Shown piece by piece: positions 19,595 through 46,320 of a DNA stretch of 64,000 nucleotides. Position 1 is the first letter of the stretch, and every line of letters begins with the position of its first letter. The position numbers and the translations under genes are program-made. The stretch lies in NCBI GenBank assembly GCA_038087015.1, contig JASBNA010000099.1, forward strand, positions 48,249 to 112,248. Direction: 5' to 3'. The stretch comes from Cerrena zonata. Taxonomy: Eukaryota > Basidiomycota > Agaricomycetes > Polyporales > Cerrenaceae. A model generated the notes under the pieces. It was given only the letters and a program-made list of their open reading frames with translations. It was not told the origin of the DNA and did no database searches.

Positions 19595-20164
19595 CTATTC
19601 GTAAAACGTTCCTTGTGGCCTAGGGTCTGGTATTCGATCACCTTGTTTTGTCTTCTGTTCCTTCTCCCAAGCATTGAAATTGGAGAGTGCGATCGAGTCT
19701 ACAGCCTGGAGATCAATCAGATCCCAGAGAATGACCTCAGACCAGAACCTGCATCCCTCTCCATTGCGGTCAAATTCATACTGATATCTTTTCCTATCCT
19801 CAAGGATGAAGTCGAGGATGCGACCAGCCGGGAGAGGAGCACTGAGATTACACTCCCATGAGATGACATGAGGCTCGGTCGGATAGGGAGATGATTCCGA
19901 TTCGACTGCGAGCTGGCCGCGTGTTACAATTGGAGAGTTCTCAAGTAAGTATGGGTTGAGATTCAAGCGAATCGATTTTTGATTGGCAAAGACGAGGGAG
20001 ACGTGAAAGTGATAGACTGAGTCAGGGGGATTACCAGGGATGACAGCAATGCCTATTATCCTCATTTTAACAACAAGACAGGCAAGATCCTTGTCATCGA
20101 GATGGGTTTGGACAATAGAGTCGCGGGCAGGAATTGGTGGCATCTGTGCAGAATGACATGTCAT
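19595..20164 (-). CDS. DUF7770-like fungal protein, 189 aa
   Basis: Single long frame containing LACLVVKMRIIGIAVIPGN, VYHFHVSLVFANQKSIRLNL and the motif GEGCRFWSEVILWDLIDL. The 'GxGCRFW' signature with preceding strands is what I associate with the fungal DUF7770 family, but this assignment is from memory of the pattern. The start is uncertain: ATGs at residues 1 and 8 are both possible, and a TTTCAG acceptor about 30 nt upstream could add an exon. It lies just outside the left copy of the inverted duplication's non-coding transcript. A decayed homologue in inverted orientation occurs at about 45.84-46.32 kb. Confidence 0.6.
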   Translation of the reverse strand: MTCHSAQMPPIPARDSIVQTHLDDKDLACLVVKMRIIGIAVIPGNPPDSVYHFHVSLVFANQKSIRLNLNPYLLENSPIVTRGQLAVESESSPYPTEPHVISWECNLSAPLPAGRILDFILEDRKRYQYEFDRNGEGCRFWSEVILWDLIDLQAVDSIALSNFNAWEKEQKTKQGDRIPDPRPQGTFYE

Positions 20165-20509
20165 GACACAGGACGACGGATGTCTGAAACATGTGCAAAC
20201 ACTTACCAGTATGTCGACAGGTCTAGTCGATCCCTAAAAGAGACAGTACTAGGTCGCACGTCTGAATAGCTGGAAGCAGAAAGATCAGGCTCAAGCTGCC
20301 AAATAAAACTAATGATAGTCGAATACGGGTTCAAGTTGGATCGCACTGCAGTGACTGAGAGTCTAGCATAGTTGGGCGTCTGGGGAAGTCATTGCCATTT
20401 TGAGACACATGATGATAAATCTGGTAATTTGAAGTATCCTGATATTGTATTTTCGTGCTAGGGAACCTGGCCATAGAGGCTCAGATTCATACGGAAGTCA
20501 AGAGACTCT

Positions 20510-20521
20510 GCTTACGTAAGC
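20510..20521. repeat. 12-bp palindrome GCTTACGTAAGC at the end of unit L
   Basis: Perfect palindrome GCTTACGTAAGC. The same 12-mer ends unit R (41237-41248), and a one-base variant GCTTACGTAATC ends unit S (45506-45517), so its position relative to the units is conserved. The TTACGTAA core is a bZIP-type binding site; a regulatory role is inference. Confidence 0.6.
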
Positions 20522-20884
20522 AGCATGTAGCAATAAGAAATAGGTAATCTTCTGGAATGCTTCATCCGCATTAGACAAAGTACAAAGAGGATTTGATTTG
20601 ACCAACCCAAGTCCGAAGGTTCAGATGGAACGAAAAAACAACAAACCAGGACATCCGGTCGCGACTACGGAGCCCCAGCTGTGTGTGTTCCATCATACGA
20701 GGAACCAACCATGCGAATCGGCACATGGTAGACTTGGGAGGTAGGGAGAGGTGGGTATACAACGGAACAAGAGACAAATAGGACCAAAGAGAATTGTGAA
20801 ACATCCGACCGCAACCAAAAAACATATGAACCATAAACCTCAACAGAAAACAGCAAAAACCAACTCCTTCCAACGGGATCCATC

Positions 20885-21275
20885 GAGTTTGGGGTGGGAC
20901 GACGGGGACGGGGAAGGGGACGGGATGCTGGGTAGGGACGAGGGGAGAGCCTACAGTTAAATATTCAAAAGGTTGGAAATATTATCAGCACCGTTGTTTT
21001 AGAATAAGCAAATGAAGATAAAACAAGTAACATCACCAAGTTTACTTCAGGCTCAGGGAGGACGGGGACGGGGACGGGGACGGGGACGGAGATGACGGGT
21101 CGGATAGAAGTGGAAGCCTATAATTAGATGTTCAGGGGGTTGGAACCATTATTAGCACCGTTGTTGTAGAATAAGGGAACGAAGATAAATCAAGCAACAT
21201 CACCAAAATTTCACTAAAGCGATCTTCTCTCGGGTGGGACGGGGACGGGGACGACGGGGAAGGGGGGTTGGGCAG
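20885..21275. repeat. Dispersed GGGGAC hexamer tracts with ~160-nt degenerate units (left arm)
   Basis: Short runs of GGGGAC (about 20905-20925, 21062-21090, 21238-21262) are separated by similar ~160-nt blocks that share ATTATCAGCACCGTTGTT-like and AAATATCAC/AACATCACCAA-like sequence. The same pattern occurs in the right arm on the opposite strand as GTCCCC. Confidence 0.7.
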
Positions 21276-22508
21276 CTACAGAAACTCGGTGTTCAAACAT
21301 TATCAGCACTGCACCACGAAATATCAAAGAAGGAGAGGCTGAATTGTACTCAATAAGACGGCTGATTCTAGAAGACGAAATCCCAGGGTTCTACTCAGCA
21401 GCTCCCAATATCCTCCAGCGAACTTGTATCCTTCGAACTCCGACGAGATGAGATTCAAAGAGGGTGTCGGCAGTGGAGATTGGTGATTGAGTGATCTAAG
21501 AGATAGGACGATGCTCAAGAGATAGTCAGCAAAACTGTATTAATGACAAAAACAGAAGATGACGGATGTATGGCGGAGTCCCAGGATCTTCGGGATCATG
21601 ACTTCCTCCCCTGACACTCTACCGTTCACCCGCCTCGATCAGATGGAAATCACTCGCCTTTTCATTGTGAATTTCGGATTTGGAGAGACGGTTGGTTGAC
21701 CTAAGAAAGTAGCTTAAGATGCGTCAGCAAACTGGTATAGAAAGTGCGGAGACAGTGGCAAAGCATCAACATCGGAGGTCATGACTCCCCTCAGCCGACA
21801 CTCTGCAGGAGTAGAGTAAGGTACTCGCCTTTTATTGTGCCCATCAAATATTGCTGTGGTATAGTGATGACCTAGGAAACATAAAGGGGTATTAGCATGC
21901 TTGAACAAAATAGACGAAACGATAGCCAGCAGGTGATAGACAGAATTCCAACGTCCTCGGGTCATGACTTCCTCCTTCGAGACTCTGCAATACAGCTGCC
22001 TGTCTAATGGAAAAGGACTTGCCTGTGAATTATATTATTATCCTTGTCCTTCAAAGTTGACCTAGGAACTCAAAGACGATATGTCAGCAAACTGATATCG
22101 AAAGCGCCAACAGAGCATCAACGTCGGGGTTCATGACTCCCCTCGGCTGACACTCTGCAGGAATAAAGTGAAGCACTCGCCTTTAGATGCATATCATCAA
22201 AATCCTACTCTAGGTTCGGTGGGACGCGGGAGGGGATCGGACGCCAGTGGCTGGGATCTAGCTCAGAGGGGAGAAATCCTACGGTCAGCCGCAAATAGGT
22301 TCCGAGAGAAGAAGGAAAGAAGAGAAGTGCATGTCCGCAAGACATCTCGCACTATCGTATCCGTAACACAAGAATCCAAATGTCCGAGCATAAGAGTCCG
22401 TATCAAAAGTCCATAATGTCCATAACAGAAGGAAAGAAAGGGGAGAAAGGGAAAAAGTAACAAATTGAGGGACAGTTCGGTCATCGAAAGAAGCAGCCAG
22501 TGAATCAT

Positions 22509-22895
22509 CTAATAGACGTTCCCAGGAAGTTCAGAGTCCAACCGAACAAATTCCCAAATTGCAGCCCACTTGGCTTGAATCGCATTCACCTCCTCGATCT
22601 CAAAGCCCTCATTGCGACGCTTAATGTGATTGGTCTCCTGCGCCTCTTTCAGAGAAACAAGCTTTAGTGACTGCGCCTGTCTGAACTCGACCACCTTATC
22701 CAGCAGCTCCAGGCTGCGATAGACGATCTCGGGCGACTTCTGAGCAACGCCGAGAGGGAGAAGACCGGGTCGCTGGTCGAGGGAAGTGAAGACGAAGGGG
22801 GCAGAGTACTCAGCTTGGGCCGGTACAGAGGGCTTTGGGACGAGCTTAACCTCAGCCTTCTGGACACGGCGAGCTTTGAAGAGGGTGAAAGGCAT
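22509..22895 (-). CDS. 128-aa protein, left copy of the duplicated gene, function unknown
   Basis: Single-exon ORF starting MPFTLFKARRVQKAEVKLVP and ending in SELPGNVY. It has a basic N-terminus, a Pro/Phe-rich middle (APFVFTSLDQRPGLLPLG), then a long helix-forming, charged C-terminal half (LELLDKVVEFRQAQSLKLVS, EIEEVNAIQAKWAAIWEF). There is no signal peptide or membrane segment. The right-arm copy (38898-39284) differs at four residues, all in the first 40. Both copies retain intact frames with a shared promoter and 5' leader, arguing that both are under selection or that the duplication is recent. No family recognised. Confidence 0.75.
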   Translation of the reverse strand: MPFTLFKARRVQKAEVKLVPKPSVPAQAEYSAPFVFTSLDQRPGLLPLGVAQKSPEIVYRSLELLDKVVEFRQAQSLKLVSLKEAQETNHIKRRNEGFEIEEVNAIQAKWAAIWEFVRLDSELPGNVY

Positions 22896-23029
22896 TGTGT
22901 TTGGTGTGTGGTAAGGGGTGGTAGGGTATGGTAGGTGTGTGGTAGGGTGTGGTAGGGTGTGTGGTATATGTGTGAATGTGATGGTAGGAAGGCAAGATGT
23001 TTTCTACCGTTCATGGTCCGCAGGGCGGG

Positions 23030-23035
23030 TTTATA
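23030..23035 (-). promoter_or_regulatory. TATA box of the left 128-aa gene
   Basis: TATAAA on the minus strand about 135 nt upstream of the ATG, in a block conserved with the right arm (TATAAA at 38768-38773). The leader between contains a CCACACACC-type C/A-rich repeat. Confidence 0.55.
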
Positions 23036-24034
23036 TGGTGCTGACAGTCCGCGGATTCCGAGAGAGGCTGACCACCGCAAAGTCTAGATCCCGAGTGCGT
23101 CGTATGGTGTCATTCTGCGGCATTGTACAAGTGAGGAACATACAGCTCGAGAGGCCAGGGATATTTAGACAGCTGGCTATACACGGTTAGAGTCTCTGGC
23201 CGGAGTGACCGAGAATACTGGATAGACAAAAAAAGGGATCGAGATCACTTTATCGACCGCATGGAACGCCGGGACACTAAAGCTATCAAGTTAGAGGTAG
23301 TTGTGTCGAAGTGGCGAATATAAAAGCTCAGAGGCAGTAGATCTGAAACGAAGAGCGATCGAGACCGACTTTGAATGGGTAAAAATAGCGACACGCAGGT
23401 GTAACAGCGTAGCTTACTGGCAGGTATATACGCTGAAGCGCGCGAATACTATATCTCAACTTCATCTGTGATAAAGACTCACCTTGAGTGAAGGAAATCC
23501 AAGTCCTTCCAGTTCTCCCTGTGATCAATCTATGCGGCGAAGGGACACGAAGAGCGGATCCTTTGGTCTGACTGCCAGGCTCGACGGAGTCCGTCCACCC
23601 GGTATGTTGGGCGACCTCTGGCACTCAAGGTAATGTAGTACAGGCCGCTGTTTCAAGCTGAAAGTCCCTGCAATACTAAGTACTGAGCGCGCTGGAGTTT
23701 GCACGATGAAGTTCACCAGTGGAAGTAATAAAACTGAAATTGAAATTGATCAAATCGCGGTAATCGCATCTTATCTTATCTCAGACCGAGCTGTATATCG
23801 TGGCGGTGCCGAATTCAGCATGAACTCATCGGGTCAGAAGTTCACATACCCTGACAGTTGTACTAGTAACAGTTGTAACAACTTCCTTTATGTTATCCGC
23901 GCCGACTCAGGGTCTTACACGATGTATCATGCTCCGGTGTTGCAATTATTCAGCGACAGGGTCCACTTCTTTATATACTGCCCACGGTTCAACCGTGGCG
24001 TATTCGGCGTATTCCCAGTGCACTCCACACCGCC

Positions 24035-38767: not shown

Positions 38768-38773
38768 TATAAA
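38768..38773 (+). promoter_or_regulatory. TATA box of the right 128-aa gene
   Basis: TATAAA 125 nt upstream of the ATG, conserved with the left arm. A C/A-rich CCACACACC-like leader (about 38830-38895) follows before the start codon. Confidence 0.55.
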
Positions 38774-38897: not shown

Positions 38898-39284
38898 ATG
38901 CCTTTCACCCTTTTCAAAGCTCGCCGTGTCCAGAAGACTGAGGTTAAGCTCGTCCCAAAGACTTCTGTACCGGTCCAAGCTGAGTACTCTGCCCCCTTCG
39001 TCTTCACTCCCCTCGACCAGCGACCCGGTCTTCTCCCTCTCGGCGTTGCTCAGAAGTCGCCCGAGATTGTCTATCGCAGCCTGGAGCTGCTCGATAAGGT
39101 GGTCGAGTTCAGACAGGCGCAGTCACTAAAGCTTGTTTCACTGAAAGAGGCACAGGAGACCAATCACATTAAGCGTCGCAATGAGGGCTTTGAGATCGAG
39201 GAGGTGAATGCGATTCAAGCCAAGTGGGCTGCAATTTGGGAATTTGTTCGATTGGACTCTGAACTTCCTGGGAACGTCTATTAG
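38898..39284 (+). CDS. 128-aa protein, right copy of the duplicated gene, function unknown
   Basis: Single-exon ORF beginning MPFTLFKARRVQKTEVKLVP. It differs from the left copy at four positions (A/T, P/T, A/V and S/P in the first 40 residues); the remaining 88 residues are identical. Predicted as a small soluble, helical, charged protein. The transcript continues into a spliced, seemingly non-coding region (unit R). Strong sequence conservation extends into its promoter and leader, so expression is probably shared with the left copy. Family not recognised. Confidence 0.75.
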   Translation: MPFTLFKARRVQKTEVKLVPKTSVPVQAEYSAPFVFTPLDQRPGLLPLGVAQKSPEIVYRSLELLDKVVEFRQAQSLKLVSLKEAQETNHIKRRNEGFEIEEVNAIQAKWAAIWEFVRLDSELPGNVY

Positions 39285-41240
39285 ATGATTTACAGGCTGC
39301 TTCTTTCGATGACCGGACTGTCCCTCAATTTGTTACTTTTTCTTTTTTCCCTTTCCCTCCCCCTTCTTTCTGTTACGGACATTATGGACATTGATACGGA
39401 CTCTTATGCTCGGACATTTGGACTCTTGTGTTGCGGATACGGCAGTGCGAGATGTCTTGCGGACATGCACTTCTCTCCTTTCCTTTTTCTCTCGGAACCT
39501 ATTTGCGGCTGACCGTCGAATTTCTCCCCTCTGAGCTAGATCCCAGCCGCCGGCGTCCGATCCCCTCCCGCATCCCACCGAACCTGGAGTAGGAAGGTTT
39601 TATGACATGCATCTGAAGGCGAGTGGTTCATTTCATTCCTACAGAGTGTCAACTGAGGGGAGTCATGAACCCTGACGTTGATGCTCTGTCGGTGCTTTCG
39701 ATATCAGTTTGCTGACCTATCTTCCTTGAGCTACTTTCCTAGGTCAACTTTAAGGGACCAGGATAATAATATAATTCACAGGCAAGTCCTTTTCCATTAC
39801 ACGTATTGCAGAGTCCTGAAGGAGGAAGTCATGACCCGAGGACGTTGGAACTCTGTGTATCACCTGCTGGCTATCGTTTCGTCCGTTTTATTCAAGTATG
39901 CTAATACCCCTTTGCGTTTCCTAGGTCGTCGCTATATCACAGCAATCTTTGATGGGCGCAATGAAAGGCGAGTACTTTATTCTACTCCTGCAGAGTGTCG
40001 GCTGAGGGGAGTCATGACCCCCGACGTTGATGTTCTGCCACTGTCTTCGCAGTTTCAAAATCAGTTTGCTGACATATCTTGAGCTATTTTCTTAGGTCAA
40101 CCAGGTCTCTCTAAATCCAAAATTCACGACGAAAAGGCGAGTGATTTCTCTCTGATAGGAGCGGGTTGAGTGTCAGGGGAGGAAGTCATGACCCCGAAGA
40201 TCCTGGGACTCTGCATAACGCCCGCTACGTTTTGCTTGTGTCATTTATACAGTTTTGCTAACTATCTCTTGAGTATCGTTATGTTTCCTAGGTCTCTCAG
40301 TTATCAATTCCTGTCACCCGCACCCCAAGTTCGTCTCGTTAGAGTCCGAAGGATATTGATCGTAAGATATTGAGAACCCAGGATGTCGTCTTATTGAGTA
40401 CAATCCAGCCTCTTCTTCTCTGATGTTTCGTAGTCCAGTGTTGATGATGTTAGAACACCGAACTCTCTTTAGCTGGCCAATCCTCCTGCCCCGTCGTCCC
40501 CATCCCCGTCCCCGACCTACCCGAAACACGATCGTTTTAGCTTGAAGGATATCCGGTGATGTTACTTATTTTATCTTCATTTGCTTGTTCCACAACAGTA
40601 GTGCTGATGATATTTCCACCCTCAGGATATTTAACCACAGACACCTCCCTCGTCCGACCCATCGTCTCCAACCCCCGTCCCCCGTTCGTCCCACCTGAGA
40701 GAGGATTTTTTAGGCCCGAAAGAAACTTGGTGGTGTTGCTTATTTTATCATTCACTTACTCTACGACAACGGTGCTGATAACATTTCCAACCTTTTGAAT
40801 ACTTAACTGCAGGCTCTCGATTCGTCACCACCCACCATCCCGTCCCCATCCCCGTCCCCGTCCCACTTCGAACTCGATGGATTCCGTTGAGGGAGTTAGT
40901 TTTTGCTGTTTTCCGTTGAGCTTTATGGTTCATGTGTTTTTCTGGTTGCGGTCGGATGTTTCACAATTCTGTTTGATCCTATTTGTCTCTTGTTCCATTG
41001 TATACCCACCCCCTTCCTACCTCCCAAGTCTACCATGTGCCGATTCGCATGGTTGGTTCTTCGTATGATGGAACACACACAGCTGGGGCTCCGTAGTCGC
41101 GACCGGATGTCCTGGTTTGTTTTTTCGTTCCATCTGAACCTTCGGACTTTGGGCTGGTCAATGAAAACCCCTTTAGACTTTGTCTATTACAGATGAAGTA
41201 TTTTAGAGTAGTATATATTTCCTATTGCTGCATGTTGCTT
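39285..41240 (+). ncRNA. Unit R: multi-exon, apparently non-coding transcript region with four GC-AG introns
   Basis: Introns 39619-39742, 39782-39924, 39968-40095 and 40137-40291. Donors are AAG|GCGAGT (three) and CAG|GCAAGT (one); all end in CTAG or CTTAG after a CTGAC/CTAAC/CTAAT branch site. Exons between them are 39, 43 and 41 nt; the last differs in length from unit L (43), so no reading frame is kept. Hairpins lie at 39641-39689, 39808-39856, 39990-40038 and about 40165-40214. It ends with GTCCCC tracts and the GCTTACGTAAGC palindrome. It could be an independent RNA gene or the 3' UTR of the 128-aa gene. Confidence 0.6.
40495..40870. repeat. GTCCCC hexamer tracts and ~160-nt degenerate units (right arm)
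   Basis: Mirror of the GGGGAC tracts in the left arm: runs near 40498-40515, 40662-40695 and 40838-40865, with intervening copies of a GGTGTTGCTTATTTTATC...GTGCTGATAATATTTCC type block. Confidence 0.65.
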
Positions 41241-41978
41241 ACGTAAGCAAGGCCTCTTGACTTGCACAGTTTCTTTGTAATGTAGAATCATTTATTCGAA
41301 TCGCGAGCCTGGCGGAGGGTTGTTTCGACCATTCAAGCCCTCCTATATGTTGAATTATCATGTCTCAGAACTTCTTGAGGCTCTCATATATAGTACATGG
41401 CTCTTGCCGCTTGCAATAAAACTCCTCAGCATCCACCAAATGCAATGTCGGGATCATGATACTTCAAGTTACCGGATTTGTCATTATGCGTCTCGAAATG
41501 GCAATGCCTTCTTTAGACGCCGGGCCTATGGCAGTCGGAGTCGATGAACTTTTTGAAGAAACAACTGTCTTCCACTGAATACTGCTTTGAACTTGGACTT
41601 GAGCTCCACTTCTTTGTTCGTACGAAGAGTGGATCTATGTGTATACCGTGCATATCTTAACTTGATATCCCTCTACGTGGTCTACGTTGGCACGACACCG
41701 ATGTCGGGTAAGCATCTGCCAGTGTTCTAACTTCACATGTCTTTCGTCAAAGTTTTTACACTGATATTCGAGCAAACGTATCTCCAGCTACTATGTCCTG
41801 GCTTTGTCAGTGAACCCTCTGGAGTGCGCTGACCCCTATTCTCTGAAGTTGACACCGTACACCCCATCAAAGAAGCACAAAGTCCGGCCACACATTCCAA
41901 ATAAGGCAAGTGCAGTGGTGTCGAAGCCCGAAAACGAACAGTGTTTGGTTTATCTCGCGGGGATTACCGCAGAGGTAG

Positions 41979-41985
41979 TATAAAA
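41979..41985 (+). promoter_or_regulatory. TATA box of the membrane/acidic protein gene
   Basis: TATAAAA about 137 nt upstream of the ATG at 42116. A CCACCATGTC context matches a good start. Confidence 0.55.
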
Positions 41986-42115
41986 ACCAACATTCAGCAC
42001 GCCCAGTCCTCCACCCTTCTTTCCTTCTCCCCACTCTCATCTTGTTATTGGCACTTCGCCTATAAAGCTTCCCTCACGTTCACGTTACCTTTAAACATAC
42101 CTTCTGTCTTCCACC

Positions 42116-43771
42116 ATGTCCTTCTTGACTGCCTTCACCCCCATCGACCCCAACTCTTGGGTCGCTCTTTACTACCTCAGATGGCTGCCCTTCCTTGCGG
42201 CTACTGTCCGAGTAGACCTCTTGTTAGCAACCCCCGACTGTGTCTTCCCGCCAACCCCCACTACTCCTTATACCGCGCCTTCTCCAGTGGATACGACATG
42301 TCTAGCAGTCGCACTCGTCTTCATATGCCTTTTAATCATGGTCTTGTCTGGTCTTGTGCTCTGCGGCGTGCGTTTTAAGTTGCCTCAACTCGTGCAACGC
42401 CTTGGAGGTTATACCCTGATCGTCTGCTTGGCCGAGGCTTTAATCTTCGTGTTGCTATTAAACACGATCCAGAACATCTACAAATACACTGCACACTCAT
42501 TGTATCGCTTAAGCGTTGCGTTTCTGGACAAAGTGTGTCTTATTTGTTCCTCACATCTGAATCGTACTTATGCGTATGTTTTAGGACTCAGAGTACACCG
42601 TGGGATTGGATCTGGAGTTGATAGGGGACATGGTATGTGTTGTAAATCTATGCATTTCAAATGTCATTCTAACTTGGCCTCTCCAGGATGCTCCAACGGC
42701 AGTTCCCCTAGTGGCCGCTTTGGCACAATCTACAGCTGAATCTATCGCTCCAGTAATCAAATGCACTCCCCCCACCTTCACTCCTGCTGCTCCCGTCCCT
42801 GAGCTCGCTACCTCCGTCGTTGAACCTACTTCCCCCTTGGTTGAACCCACCATCCCCTTGGTTGACTCTACTGCTGAACCTATCTTTGTTCGTGAAGAAC
42901 CTAGCAATATTATCTTCGAAATCGACCCTCTCGATCCAACTCCCTACCTTCCCATCTTCAATGACATCGTTCAACAAATCCAATGTGAATCGGCCGCCTT
43001 CCACAATGTCTCTACTACCCTGGATATCAACGAGCAGCCTGTTATTCCTCCTCGATTTCTTCTTAATCGACGGCTGCTTGATGAGCCAAGTCACGGCCGC
43101 TATCGTTCCAGAGGGACATGGTTGCGGTACAATCCGTCTGCAGCATGGCGGGATGGTTGCTGTAGATATTGTCAATATCGAGATGATCGGAATTGATCCT
43201 CCTTTACCGACGTCTGTGCATGTGCCACAGGTTCCTGGTGGTGGCTCTGGACTGGTTGAATGTGCCGAAGAAGATTTGGTGCTTGACTACAACGATTTCC
43301 TCAATTTCGGCAATGACGACGACGACGACGATCTGGACAGTGAGGTCGAGGTTGAAGTTACACCAATTGCAAGTCCCGAGCCCTCTCACAGTGAGCCGCC
43401 AGTAGTTGAAGATCACATCAACCCGATATTCAGTGTGACAACACCGCCAATTGATAATGACAGTACGTGATCTCTTTTCTTTTCCTGCGTCAATCGACTC
43501 ACTCCTGTTCCCGTCAGACAACAAGGAGACCCTTGATTTTGGTGACCTTGGTGGTTTCTCCTTGAGCGGTGCCGACTACGGTCTCAGCGACGACATGCTT
43601 GCTCAATTGAATGGTGGAGGTTGCGCATATGCCGACGGGAGTCACACTTCTGAAATTGATGACTGGATGTCATACATGGCGTACAGCTCGCCTTCCACAT
43701 CATCGGACGACTCATCGTCTACCTCGTCTGAGACTTCCCTGGACGACTGGACAAGTTCTGTGCCCAACTAA
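42116..43771 (+). CDS. Membrane protein with acidic Pro/Ser-rich tail, function unknown, one frame break
   Basis: Starts MSFLTAFTPIDPNSWVALYY. Two hydrophobic segments occur in the first exon (about residues 62-85, CLAVALVFICLLIMVLSGLV, and 97-117, YTLIVCLAEALIFVLLLNTI). Exon 1 ends LDK (GTGTGT...TTTTAG intron), exon 2 is DSEYTVGLDLELIGDM, and exon 3 begins DAPTAVPLVAALAQ and is Pro/Val/Glu-rich. Near 43065 the frame shifts by one base into IDGCLMSQVTAAIVPEGHGC, then runs into an acidic Asp run. A last intron (GTACGT...CGTCAG) joins to NNKETLDFGDLGGFS and a Ser/Asp-rich end (SSVPN). Two introns are exact. The stop is followed by another GT-AG intron in the 3' UTR (about 43779-43829), leading into unit S. 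Family not recognised. Confidence 0.6.
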
Positions 43772-45510
43772 TTTCATTGTACGTCTCCTCCCTGACTAAC
43801 TCCCCCTCCCACACTAACGTGCTTATAGGGACTTTATCAAGCCTGACTTTGGCCTTCCTCGGAGATCTATATGATGCTTTCTTGGCTGCGCTGTTCGATG
43901 GCGAGATTTCCTCCAATGTTTTCTCTTTTCTTGTTTCTCTCTTCCTCTAATCCTTTCTCTTGTCTTGTTTTTCATTCCCTCTCTCTTTCTGCTTCTCTTC
44001 TCATCTTTGTGCCTTATGGAAAACCCGGGTTTCGCATGCATGCATTTATGGTACCTTATGACATGGTGTAATATGTCTAGCGGACATGCACCTTGTTCTC
44101 ATTCTCATGTTCATTTTCATATTTTTCTGTCTAGCTGTCCCCTGGCGGGATTGGCCCATCCCTCGTGCGGCTGACCATACACTTCTTTCCCCTTTATTCT
44201 AGGGTTACATTCATCCATCCATCCATCCATCCAATCAATCATCTGTCGTGAGGAACACAAATTCAAAATCTAGATTTATAGGCAAGTCATTTCCCATAAT
44301 TCAGGCGGCTGTAACGCGGAATCTCAGTGATGGAGGGAGTCATGAACCCGAGAAAGTTGGAATTCTGTGTATCACCTGCCCGCTCTCGTGTTTTTTGTCC
44401 GCTCGGTCATGCTAATTCCCTTCTAAGTTTCCTAGGTCGGATGTCATCGCTACCCCACGGGTCACAGCAAGCTTGGATGGACGTAAGAAAAGGCGAGTAT
44501 CTCTTTATTTACGGTGTATGGCTTGTAGAATATCGTTGGAGAGGTTTCCATGGGTCTCGAAGATTGCATATTCTGCGAGCCATTCACCCCACTCCACCTT
44601 GCGTCTGAATAGTTGGACACTAACAAATATTCTGCCCAGGACCTTTCCTCCATCTTTGTGGCCAGCCTCTCGAGGACGAAAAAGGCGAGTGTCTGTTTTT
44701 TTTTTGCTTCTTAATGTACGAGGACGTGGCTCGCAGGACGTCTGCTACCGGAGCTCATGACTCCGAGATGTTCTGCTTACTATCCTTCTCGTTCTGTCTC
44801 AAACTTACTCCTAATGACTGACTGCTAACCAATCTTTGAGTTTTTTCTCTCGGAATATCCCTCCGACAGAATGGAAGTGGCATGTTACAAGGTCGTAAAA
44901 AGGCGAGTTTCTTTCTCCCAATCTTATTCTTTAGCAAGCGATCTGCAACATGTCTGCCAACGGAACTCATGACTCCGAGATGTCACGCATTCCCTTTCCA
45001 CTTCGCTGTCGTCCTCCGTCCATCACAATGCTAACAAGATGAAAAGTTCTAGATTCAACTGCTAAATTTTACCTCAAATTCAAGACAAATCAACTCCATC
45101 CCCCGCAAGTGTTCATATGTTCAAACTTTCAAGGCTCATTCTCGTTCCGGTTGTTTTGATGTTGGCCTATTTTTCTCTTGGTAATGTGGTTGTTTCCGGG
45201 TATGTGTCGATTGTGGGTCGTCGGTGTCGTGCGTGTGTAGTGCGTGTCGTGTGTGTCGTTGTATCTCTTCCCCCCATCACCTCCCAAGTACGCCTTGTGA
45301 TTCGTTCACAAGTGTCTCGTTTGAAACGAGCAGGATCATATTATGGACCCATATAGGCATGCTTCACAGTCGCGACCTCTTGCTCAAAAGAGGTGAAGTC
45401 ATTGCCGGGCTCCTTTGATTCCTGGGACTTGGGTTGGTACCCCTCTATACCTTGCCCTCTCTGAGGGCGCAGGAAGAGGGGAAATTTATTTTCACGCAAT
45501 ATATTGCTTA
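43772..45510 (+). ncRNA. Unit S: third, diverged multi-exon non-coding region with four GC-AG introns
   Basis: Introns 44282-44435, 44493-44639, 44685-44869 and 44903-45052. Donors are TAG|GCAAGT and AAG|GCGAGT three times; acceptors CTAG, CCAG, ACAG and CTAG; branch sites GCTAAT/CTAAC. Exons between are 57, 45 and 33 nt and unlike those in L and R. Hairpins lie at 44314-44370, 44520-44581, 44733-44776 and 44945-44988. Upstream it shares a GCGGACATGCAC...TGCGGCTGACC block with unit R and downstream a CTCCCAAGT...AGTCGCGACC block, then the palindrome variant GCTTACGTAATC. The whole architecture is conserved although most sequence is not, which argues for function. Confidence 0.6.
44212..44241. 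repeat. CATC tetranucleotide microsatellite
   Basis: Run of CATC units (CATTCATCCATCCATCCATC and following) inside the first exon of unit S. No equivalent in units L or R. Confidence 0.8.
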
Positions 45511-45839
45511 CGTAATCAGTCTGTATTGAAATACATCCCAATTTGGTAAACACCTTAGTAACCACTGTGATCGAACTTGGACATGAATTTGAACTTGAAT
45601 TGAACTTAGATGTGTATCCCGATTGCCAATGCCATTAGGTTTGTTCGGCGACTCTAACCTTCTGCTTTCAGCTATCCAAATGTGCGTCTTCATTAGAGAA
45701 TCATGATTGACTATATATGCCGACGTACTAGTAAGTGTCTGCACACATTTCAAACTTGGAGTTCCGTCATCTTGTGTCATGACATATTGCCCTGTGTCAT
45801 GACATCGCCCTGTATATATGCTACCAGATCTTTTCCATG

Positions 45840-46320
45840 GCTCTATTGACCATCTCGATAGCGAGAAATTTGCTTGTCTTGGTGTCAAAATGAGGGCAAT
45901 AGGCGTCGTTGACTCGTTGTTATCCCTGGCAATCCTCCTGACTCGGTCTAGCACGTTTATGCCTGCCTCGTTTTTGCCATTCGAAAGTCGATTCGCCCGA
46001 ATCTCAATTCGTGCTTGCTCTACAATTTCCTAATCGCAATATATGGTCAGCTCGCAAGAGAGTCGAGATCTTCTCTCTACCTATGCCGTCTCCTACGGCT
46101 GTAATCTCCGGCTTAATGTTCCTTTCCTGGCTAATCGTATATTCCAATTCATCCTCACAGGAATTTAGGAAACGAGACCGGTATCAACAGTGAAGGATCT
46201 AAGTTCTAGCTCAAGATTATCCTCAAAGATCCGAAACCCCCAGGCTATGGATCACAACGCACTCTTCGAGTTCGATGCTTGGTACCAGTACGAGTAAGGT
46301 ATTCGACTACTGGAATCTGG
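45840..46320 (+). pseudogene. Decayed DUF7770-like relic, inverted relative to 19595-20164
   Basis: Plus-strand frames, broken by frameshifts and stops, still read SIDHLDSEKFACLGVKMRAIG and, in another frame, VIPGNPPDSV, CLVFAIRKSIRPNLN and GQLARES. They match the intact gene on the minus strand (IVQTHLDDKDLACLVVKMRI, VIPGNPPDSVYHFHVSLVFA, GQLAVES). Homology continues at DNA level to about 46320, aligned with the intact gene's C-terminus. Orientation fits the inverted duplication. At least two frame changes and a stop after PPDSV make it non-functional. Confidence 0.75.

Follow-up and report, generated by a model that had tools for sequence, protein, structure and literature searches.

Hairpin-Bearing GC-AG Introns in a 3' Module Shared by Six Genes of Cerrena zonata and Their Possible Role in Splicing

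Introduction

Why would a fungal gene keep four consecutive introns with weak GC donors, each holding a similar hairpin? The question is raised by unit R of Cerrena zonata, which lies in a 64-kb stretch of DNA (hereafter, the window) together with a related unit, L, and a third gene, T. GC-AG accounts for 1.009% of splice-site pairs in a survey with 130 fungal genomes (PMC7072748, Table 1), whereas 21 of the 22 homologous introns described here keep GC, tied to a hairpin that precedes the branch site. If the hairpin controls splicing, these genes would offer a compact natural setting in which to ask why certain genes retain weak donors and whether RNA-RNA pairing can couple neighbouring introns; if the hairpins are released instead, they would form a new fungal RNA family with host genes of its own. 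The window was analyzed within its own genome (55.5 Mb, 171 contigs), and all statistics below concern related copies within this one genome.

The GC-AG Introns of Unit R

The four predicted introns of unit R lie on the forward strand. Intron 1 (39619-39742) has the donor GCGAGT, the end CTAG and the branch-like site TGCTGAC, with a hairpin at about 39641-39690 and the loop TCATGA at 39663-39668. Intron 2 (39782-39924; GCAAGT, CTAG, TGCTAAT) holds its hairpin at about 39807-39857 and the loop TCATGA at 39829-39834, intron 3 (39968-40095; GCGAGT, TTAG, TGCTGAC) at about 39990-40039 and 40012-40017, and intron 4 (40137-40291; GCGAGT, CTAG, TGCTAAC) at about 40164-40215 and 40186-40191, the loop again being TCATGA in both. 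The boundaries in the original prediction proved exact for all four, each with a GC donor, a branch-like site and an AG end, and the architecture that it described was found in each, namely an outer stem of the CAGAG/CTCTG type enclosing a smaller G/C stem with TCATGA in the loop. We infer from these signals that such introns are spliced.

Four GC-AG introns in a row had also been called extraordinary at a frequency near 1%. The frequency agrees with the fungal survey (PMC7072748, Table 1), but the row does not amount to four independent draws at that rate. Introns 1 and 3 are 80% identical over 85 nt, and introns 2 and 4 have an identical 17-nt hairpin core in common, so that the array has probably grown by tandem duplication. 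The motif GGARGAAGTCATGAYCCNGA, allowing up to three mismatches, has five matches in the window, compared with 0.11 expected.

The Gene Family Carrying the Module

Six genes of this genome carry the module, R, L and T in the window and further copies on C8, C138 and C10, with 22 hairpin introns among them: C10 has two and each of the other five genes four. Units R and L (20495-23376) are inverted copies of each other at 85% identity, and R, L, C8 and C138 form a group of close copies with 81 to 87% similarity along most of the sequence. The introns of unit L, likewise GC-AG with a hairpin, lie on the reverse strand at 22062-22180, 21872-22022, 21701-21828 and 21496-21657 (introns 1 to 4). Gene T (about 41960-45520) differs from the ORF1 genes in its coding region yet has a tail of the same kind. 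By reading of the sequence, its coding region comprises several exons at 42116-43771 on the forward strand and falls outside the ORF1 family. Its four GC-AG introns, on the same strand, lie at 44282-44435, 44493-44639, 44685-44869 and 44903-45052; the hairpin carries CCATGG in intron 2 and TCATGA in the other three. More than one acceptor is possible in T intron 3, with an alternative AG end at 44839-44840, and in C10 intron 2. The C10 gene, with its two hairpin introns, was found by a search with the ORF1 protein, which also gave a distant ORF1 gene on C1 that shows neither hairpin nor terminal motif.

Across the family the donor is GC[AG]AGT in 21 of the 22 introns, and none has GT. AG precedes 20 of these 21 donors, and CG precedes that of C10 intron 2. 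The sole non-GC donor, AG/GAATGT, belongs to C138 intron 2 (about 3921 of L007), which has lost the GC donor while keeping the preceding AG and the hairpin; here the script chose a later AG than in the relatives. A YTRAY site followed by YAG is present in 22 of 22 introns, when the best-scoring site after the loop is taken. Against the Rfam families of group I and group II self-splicing introns, neither the window at gathering score nor the R and T tails under relaxed thresholds gave a match. In one type of intron an acceptor-like YAG stands before the donor (acag/GCAAGT, atag/GCAAGT), as at recursive splice sites; examples lie at 39778-39784 and 44278-44284 in the window and at 3384-3390 of L017.

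A Constrained ORF and a Probably Non-Coding Tail

ORF1 of unit R (38898-39284, forward strand) encodes 128 amino acids with no Pfam match and lies behind a TATA-like box (38768-38773, forward strand) that is conserved in the alignment of R, L, C8 and C138. The protein of its counterpart in unit L (22509-22895, reverse strand) is 97% identical. ORF1 changes fall 15/12/58 by codon position, and 56 of 75 single-change codon pairs are synonymous, a share of 0.75 against 0.29 expected; by this measure of its sequence, ORF1 is under purifying selection. Its predicted structure has a mean pLDDT of 57 and a pTM of 0.22.

The tail behaves differently in the stretches tested. One open frame across introns 2-3 runs for at least 77 codons in all four close copies and another near the 3' end for at least 98. 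The synonymous share is 0.31-0.33 in 39755-40082 (0.28-0.29 expected) and 0.24 in the open frame of 40900-41190 (0.29 expected). In the core at 41000-41142 one frame reaches 0.71 (15/21 pairwise changes synonymous) but is interrupted by a stop in all copies, and the open one scores 0/21. Coding sequence was therefore ruled out for 39755-40082 and 40900-41190, the open frame showing no synonymous bias. ORF1 and the tail would form one transcript, with the putative introns well downstream of the stop codon.

Hairpin Structure and the Palindromic Loop

A 17-pair structure, based on the A-type hairpins of introns 1 and 3, was tested on the alignment of all 22 introns. It pairs in 83.2% of cells, a level reached by none of 500 shuffles, which give 77.5%; slid versions attain 45.5% at most. 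This score is favoured by the derivation of the structure from the same sequences. Cells in which both partners changed number 17, against 10.2 in shuffles (1 of 500). Counting instead the pairs that show any two-sided change gives 8, against 6.6 (141 of 500 as high), so this measure lends no support. RNAalifold alone predicted only 9 pairs. When ten hairpins were folded singly (four from R, four from T, two from C10), z ranged from -3.76 to +0.19, with five at or below -2 and three between -0.44 and +0.19.

A covariance model recovers all 22 hairpins at 35.9 to 67.3 bits, and at most 16.4 bits antisense, these 22 being its own training sequences. Genome-wide, the pattern GGNRNTCATGANYCC gave 47 matches, of which 21 fall in the family and 26 outside it, and 6 matches in the control; the best score among the 22 of the 26 non-family matches that the model scored was 15.7 bits, the unscored four lying on C124, C125, C139 and C165. 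The pattern GGCGAGTN{25,55}TCATGANCC gave 16 matches, 12 of them in the family, with 4 control matches, and none of the four outside the family was reported by the model at E up to 10. Because exact patterns overlook some true members (the intron 2 hairpins are an example), the genome may hold further distant ones. Introner-like elements of fungi are likewise similar structured introns present in several copies. This class was considered and set aside: in contrast to its dispersal in unrelated genes, the patterns searched, which as exact patterns miss members, found the hairpin introns within one module only.

The loop is palindromic in 22 of 22 introns, UCAUGA in 21 and CCAUGG in T intron 2, where both changed bases are partners in the self-duplex. 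The computed, not measured, self-duplex energies are -5.0 kcal/mol for UCAUGA and -7.8 kcal/mol for CCAUGG. The palindromic loop suggests that pairing may occur between introns or between transcripts, although a single compensating swap is slight evidence for it. Kissing-loop dimerisation of this kind has a retroviral example. Alternatively, a protein may recognise the stem-borne UCAUGA and, by binding the hairpin, repress or activate splicing with no loop-loop pairing. Such a protein would explain why UCAUGA tops 21 of the 22 stems, divergent as these are, and is invariant in the four close copies, yet the CCAUGG of T intron 2, which keeps the palindrome, would break a sequence-specific site; we consider this explanation unlikely.

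Constraint and Loop-to-Branch Spacing

Variable columns were counted in R, L, C8 and C138, with gapped columns dropped. Hairpins vary in 31/203 columns, the other intron sequence in 83/318 and exons 2-4 in 39/113 (hairpin versus exon, p = 1.2e-4; hairpin versus other intron, p = 0.003; other intron versus exon, p = 0.09). The UCAUGA loops vary in 0/24 columns and the surroundings of the donors in 2/32; the corresponding counts are 27/384 for ORF1, 7/142 for 41000-41142 and 121/395 for 40292-40880. These counts bear on one account of the family, that a recently multiplied gene with ordinary introns passed on hairpins and GC donors without function. Although the close similarity of four of the six genes (81 to 87%) and the apparent tandem duplication of the array are what shared descent alone would give, hairpins and loops change less than the neighbouring exons, and T and C10 have diverged elsewhere yet keep the loop, the donor and, in part, the spacing, which makes descent alone very improbable.

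The spacing in question, counted from the palindrome's first base in the loop up to the branch A, is exactly 75 nt in 11 of the 22 introns: introns 2 and 4 of the four close copies and T intron 1, T intron 2 and C10 intron 1, the last three being diverged. In the eight A-type introns (1 and 3 of the close copies) it is 52 or 60 nt, with the donor-to-loop distance fixed at 45; it is 73 in T intron 3, 67 in T intron 4 and 95 in C10 intron 2. In the 14 introns other than the A type the donor-to-loop position ranges from 32 to 71. The branch call was the best-scoring YTRAY site in a search starting 30 nt past the loop, so the order of loop and then branch is built in, and the constant spacing was a post hoc observation. 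Aligning the four close copies places no indel in the 262 nt between loop and branch, whereas the remaining tail predicts 4.9 to 6.7 (P 0.0075 to 0.0012); the same introns have two indels before the loop and one after the branch.

The low variability of the hairpins also fits another account, in which the 3' module hosts intron-encoded RNAs, each hairpin survives splicing as a small trans-acting RNA and the exons are mere carriers. In snoRNA and miRNA host genes the structured intron parts are reported to be better conserved than the surrounding exons (PMC7719101), and on this point a host gene fits the data as well as a role in cis. The same hairpin in every intron of the array and the lack of coding signal in the exon stretches tested are also as a host would have them. 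The original prediction had compared unit R to such hosts; its structured introns and the lower variation of hairpins than of exons bear this out, but unit R is probably more than a non-coding host, as the constrained 128-aa ORF1 and a conserved region with the TATA-like box lie directly upstream and ORF1 would share the transcript. Released RNAs are further disfavoured by the absence of a box C/D or H/ACA family match in the window and in the R and T tails, and a constant distance to the branch site is unexpected for a free product. In the sequences compared, the spacing favours a role in splicing no less than it favours release of a small RNA, an alternative that we hold to be a close rival, if itself rather doubtful.

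The Terminal Domain

The module of unit R closes with a folded terminal domain (41016-41163, forward strand; z -2.99) with GTCGCGAC at 41096-41103, the helices of which are kept in C10; the counterpart in gene T has z -2.76. A helix of eight pairs and one of seven around GUCGCGACC are complete in R, L, C8, C138 and C10. Between C10 and R, 7 of the 15 pairs differ, all still paired and two changed on both sides. Pairs were counted in these five genes, as the MAFFT alignment with T looks unreliable, and the GUCGCGA of T is unpaired in its predicted fold.

The terminal motif, from GTCGCGAC to TTACGTAA, lies at 20512-20665 (reverse strand) in unit L and at 45369-45515 (forward strand) in gene T. 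Searched in the own genome as GTCGCGAC, 120-150 bases and TTACGTAA, it gave six matches, one per module gene, and no control match. The pattern was written from these six genes, so the new information is that nothing else matches, and hairpin introns and terminal motif thus mark the same set of genes.

The palindrome TGCTTACGTAAGCA at the end of unit R (41236-41249, forward strand; also 20509-20522 in unit L) sits where the similarity of the close copies stops and contains TTACGTAA, which we take to be a bZIP-type site. For the distant ORF1 relative on C1, a 12-base palindrome found in its tail was dropped as a further case because its fold is weak (z -1.54) and because the window has about as many palindromes of that length as chance predicts (21, with 15.6 expected). 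Between the GC-AG array and the terminal domain, units of ~170 bases with runs like CCCCGTCCCC and more GT-AG-like intron signals are seen (40490-40864, 20893-21263).

Relation to Known RNA Families and Systems

No canonical snoRNA boxes had been apparent in the original prediction, and no C/D or H/ACA family matched, either in the window at gathering score or when the R and T tails were scanned with relaxed thresholds. The Rfam search of the whole window returned nothing at gathering score. In the relaxed scan the T tail had no match and the R tail only one, to the drz-agam-1 ribozyme (40644-40716, minus strand), which at 22.9 bits, below the cut-off of 37, was taken as chance. In the titles and abstract openings among the matches listed for GC-AG introns, kissing loops and fungal structured RNA, no hairpin-bearing GC-AG intron element is described. 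The original suggestion of an undescribed RNA family is supported in part: the hairpins recur in six genes, no Rfam family matches the window at gathering score, and the hairpin is apparently an undescribed RNA element.

Partial parallels exist in several systems. As in the snoRNA and miRNA host genes (PMC7719101), the intron payload is more conserved than the exons; unlike those genes as reported, the module follows directly on a constrained ORF, matches no snoRNA family, has GC at all but one donor and keeps its spacing to the branch site. GC donors have been proposed to be regulatory in GC-AG introns of human and mouse lncRNA and coding genes (PMC7242645), a report whose abstract presents no common hairpin, whereas the fungal array here has a common RNA element. 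With the dimerisation elements that act through kissing loops (PMC7357161, PMC11567897), the introns have in common a hairpin with a self-complementary six-base loop, here in 22 of 22; unlike the elements of those reports, the hairpins occur several to a transcript and within introns, and they are known from sequence, with the dimer only computed.

Retained introns with a role in heterochromatin are reported in centromeric non-coding RNA of fission yeast (PMC5322907). The likeness lies in introns of a fungal non-coding RNA that, here by their donors, would be poorly spliced and would have a role of their own; unlike those introns, which serve heterochromatin, the present ones bear hairpins and stand behind a constrained coding gene. 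By analogy with that RNA (PMC5322907), inefficient GC-AG introns of a multicopy gene might hold the spliceosome and channel the transcript into RNAi or heterochromatin. A multicopy family with weak donors suits such a route, which requires neither conservation of the hairpin nor purifying selection on ORF1, and we give it scarcely any weight.

A Possible Mechanism

The distance from hairpin to branch site is maintained, and the hairpin accompanies donors that stay GC. For these reasons the most likely reading, held tentatively and at somewhat less than even confidence, is that the hairpin is an RNA element acting in cis to position or gate the removal of GC-AG introns with weak donors from a 3' UTR, perhaps through pairing between loops. 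A released trans-acting RNA follows closely, and a protein site, an RNAi trigger and shared descent are less likely. Several weak single folds, and C138 intron 2 with its hairpin but no GC donor, speak against a splicing role in cis.

In the mechanism proposed for this cis role, the genes share a non-coding 3' module of up to four putative spliceosomal introns followed by the folded terminal domain. Each intron has a weak GC donor and, between this and the branch site, a hairpin that would set the geometry of the two. The self-complementary UCAUGA loop could base-pair with its counterpart in an adjacent intron or another transcript, and the introns would be removed or retained together. Because they lie well downstream of the stop codon, their removal or retention would decide the fate of the mRNA. 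Hairpin gating, loop pairing and the effect on the mRNA are parts of this proposal. A bolder version, which we think improbable though not negligible, is an undescribed multivalent class of RNA in which an array of palindromic-loop hairpins in register with the branch sites and the terminal palindrome UCGCGA would let transcripts pair with themselves or each other, jointly deciding the removal of the GC-AG introns.

Genomic Surroundings and Relatives

A profile search for relatives elsewhere returned 17 proteins, one being the window's own, one a distant protein of Hermanssonia centrifuga and the rest from environmental sets, and searches of genome contig and viral contig collections found no relative. 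Distant relatives of the T protein are present at C4:1164859 and C22:47554, neither among the six matches of the terminal pattern. The nearest named relative of a neighbouring pseudouridine synthase is found in Somion occarium (73% identity, 97% of the query). Downstream of unit L lies a DUF7770 gene (PF24968, E 1.6e-24; 19595-20164, reverse strand), and DNA similar to this region also lies downstream of T (45660-46187) and of the C8 copy, so that a block larger than the module was probably duplicated.
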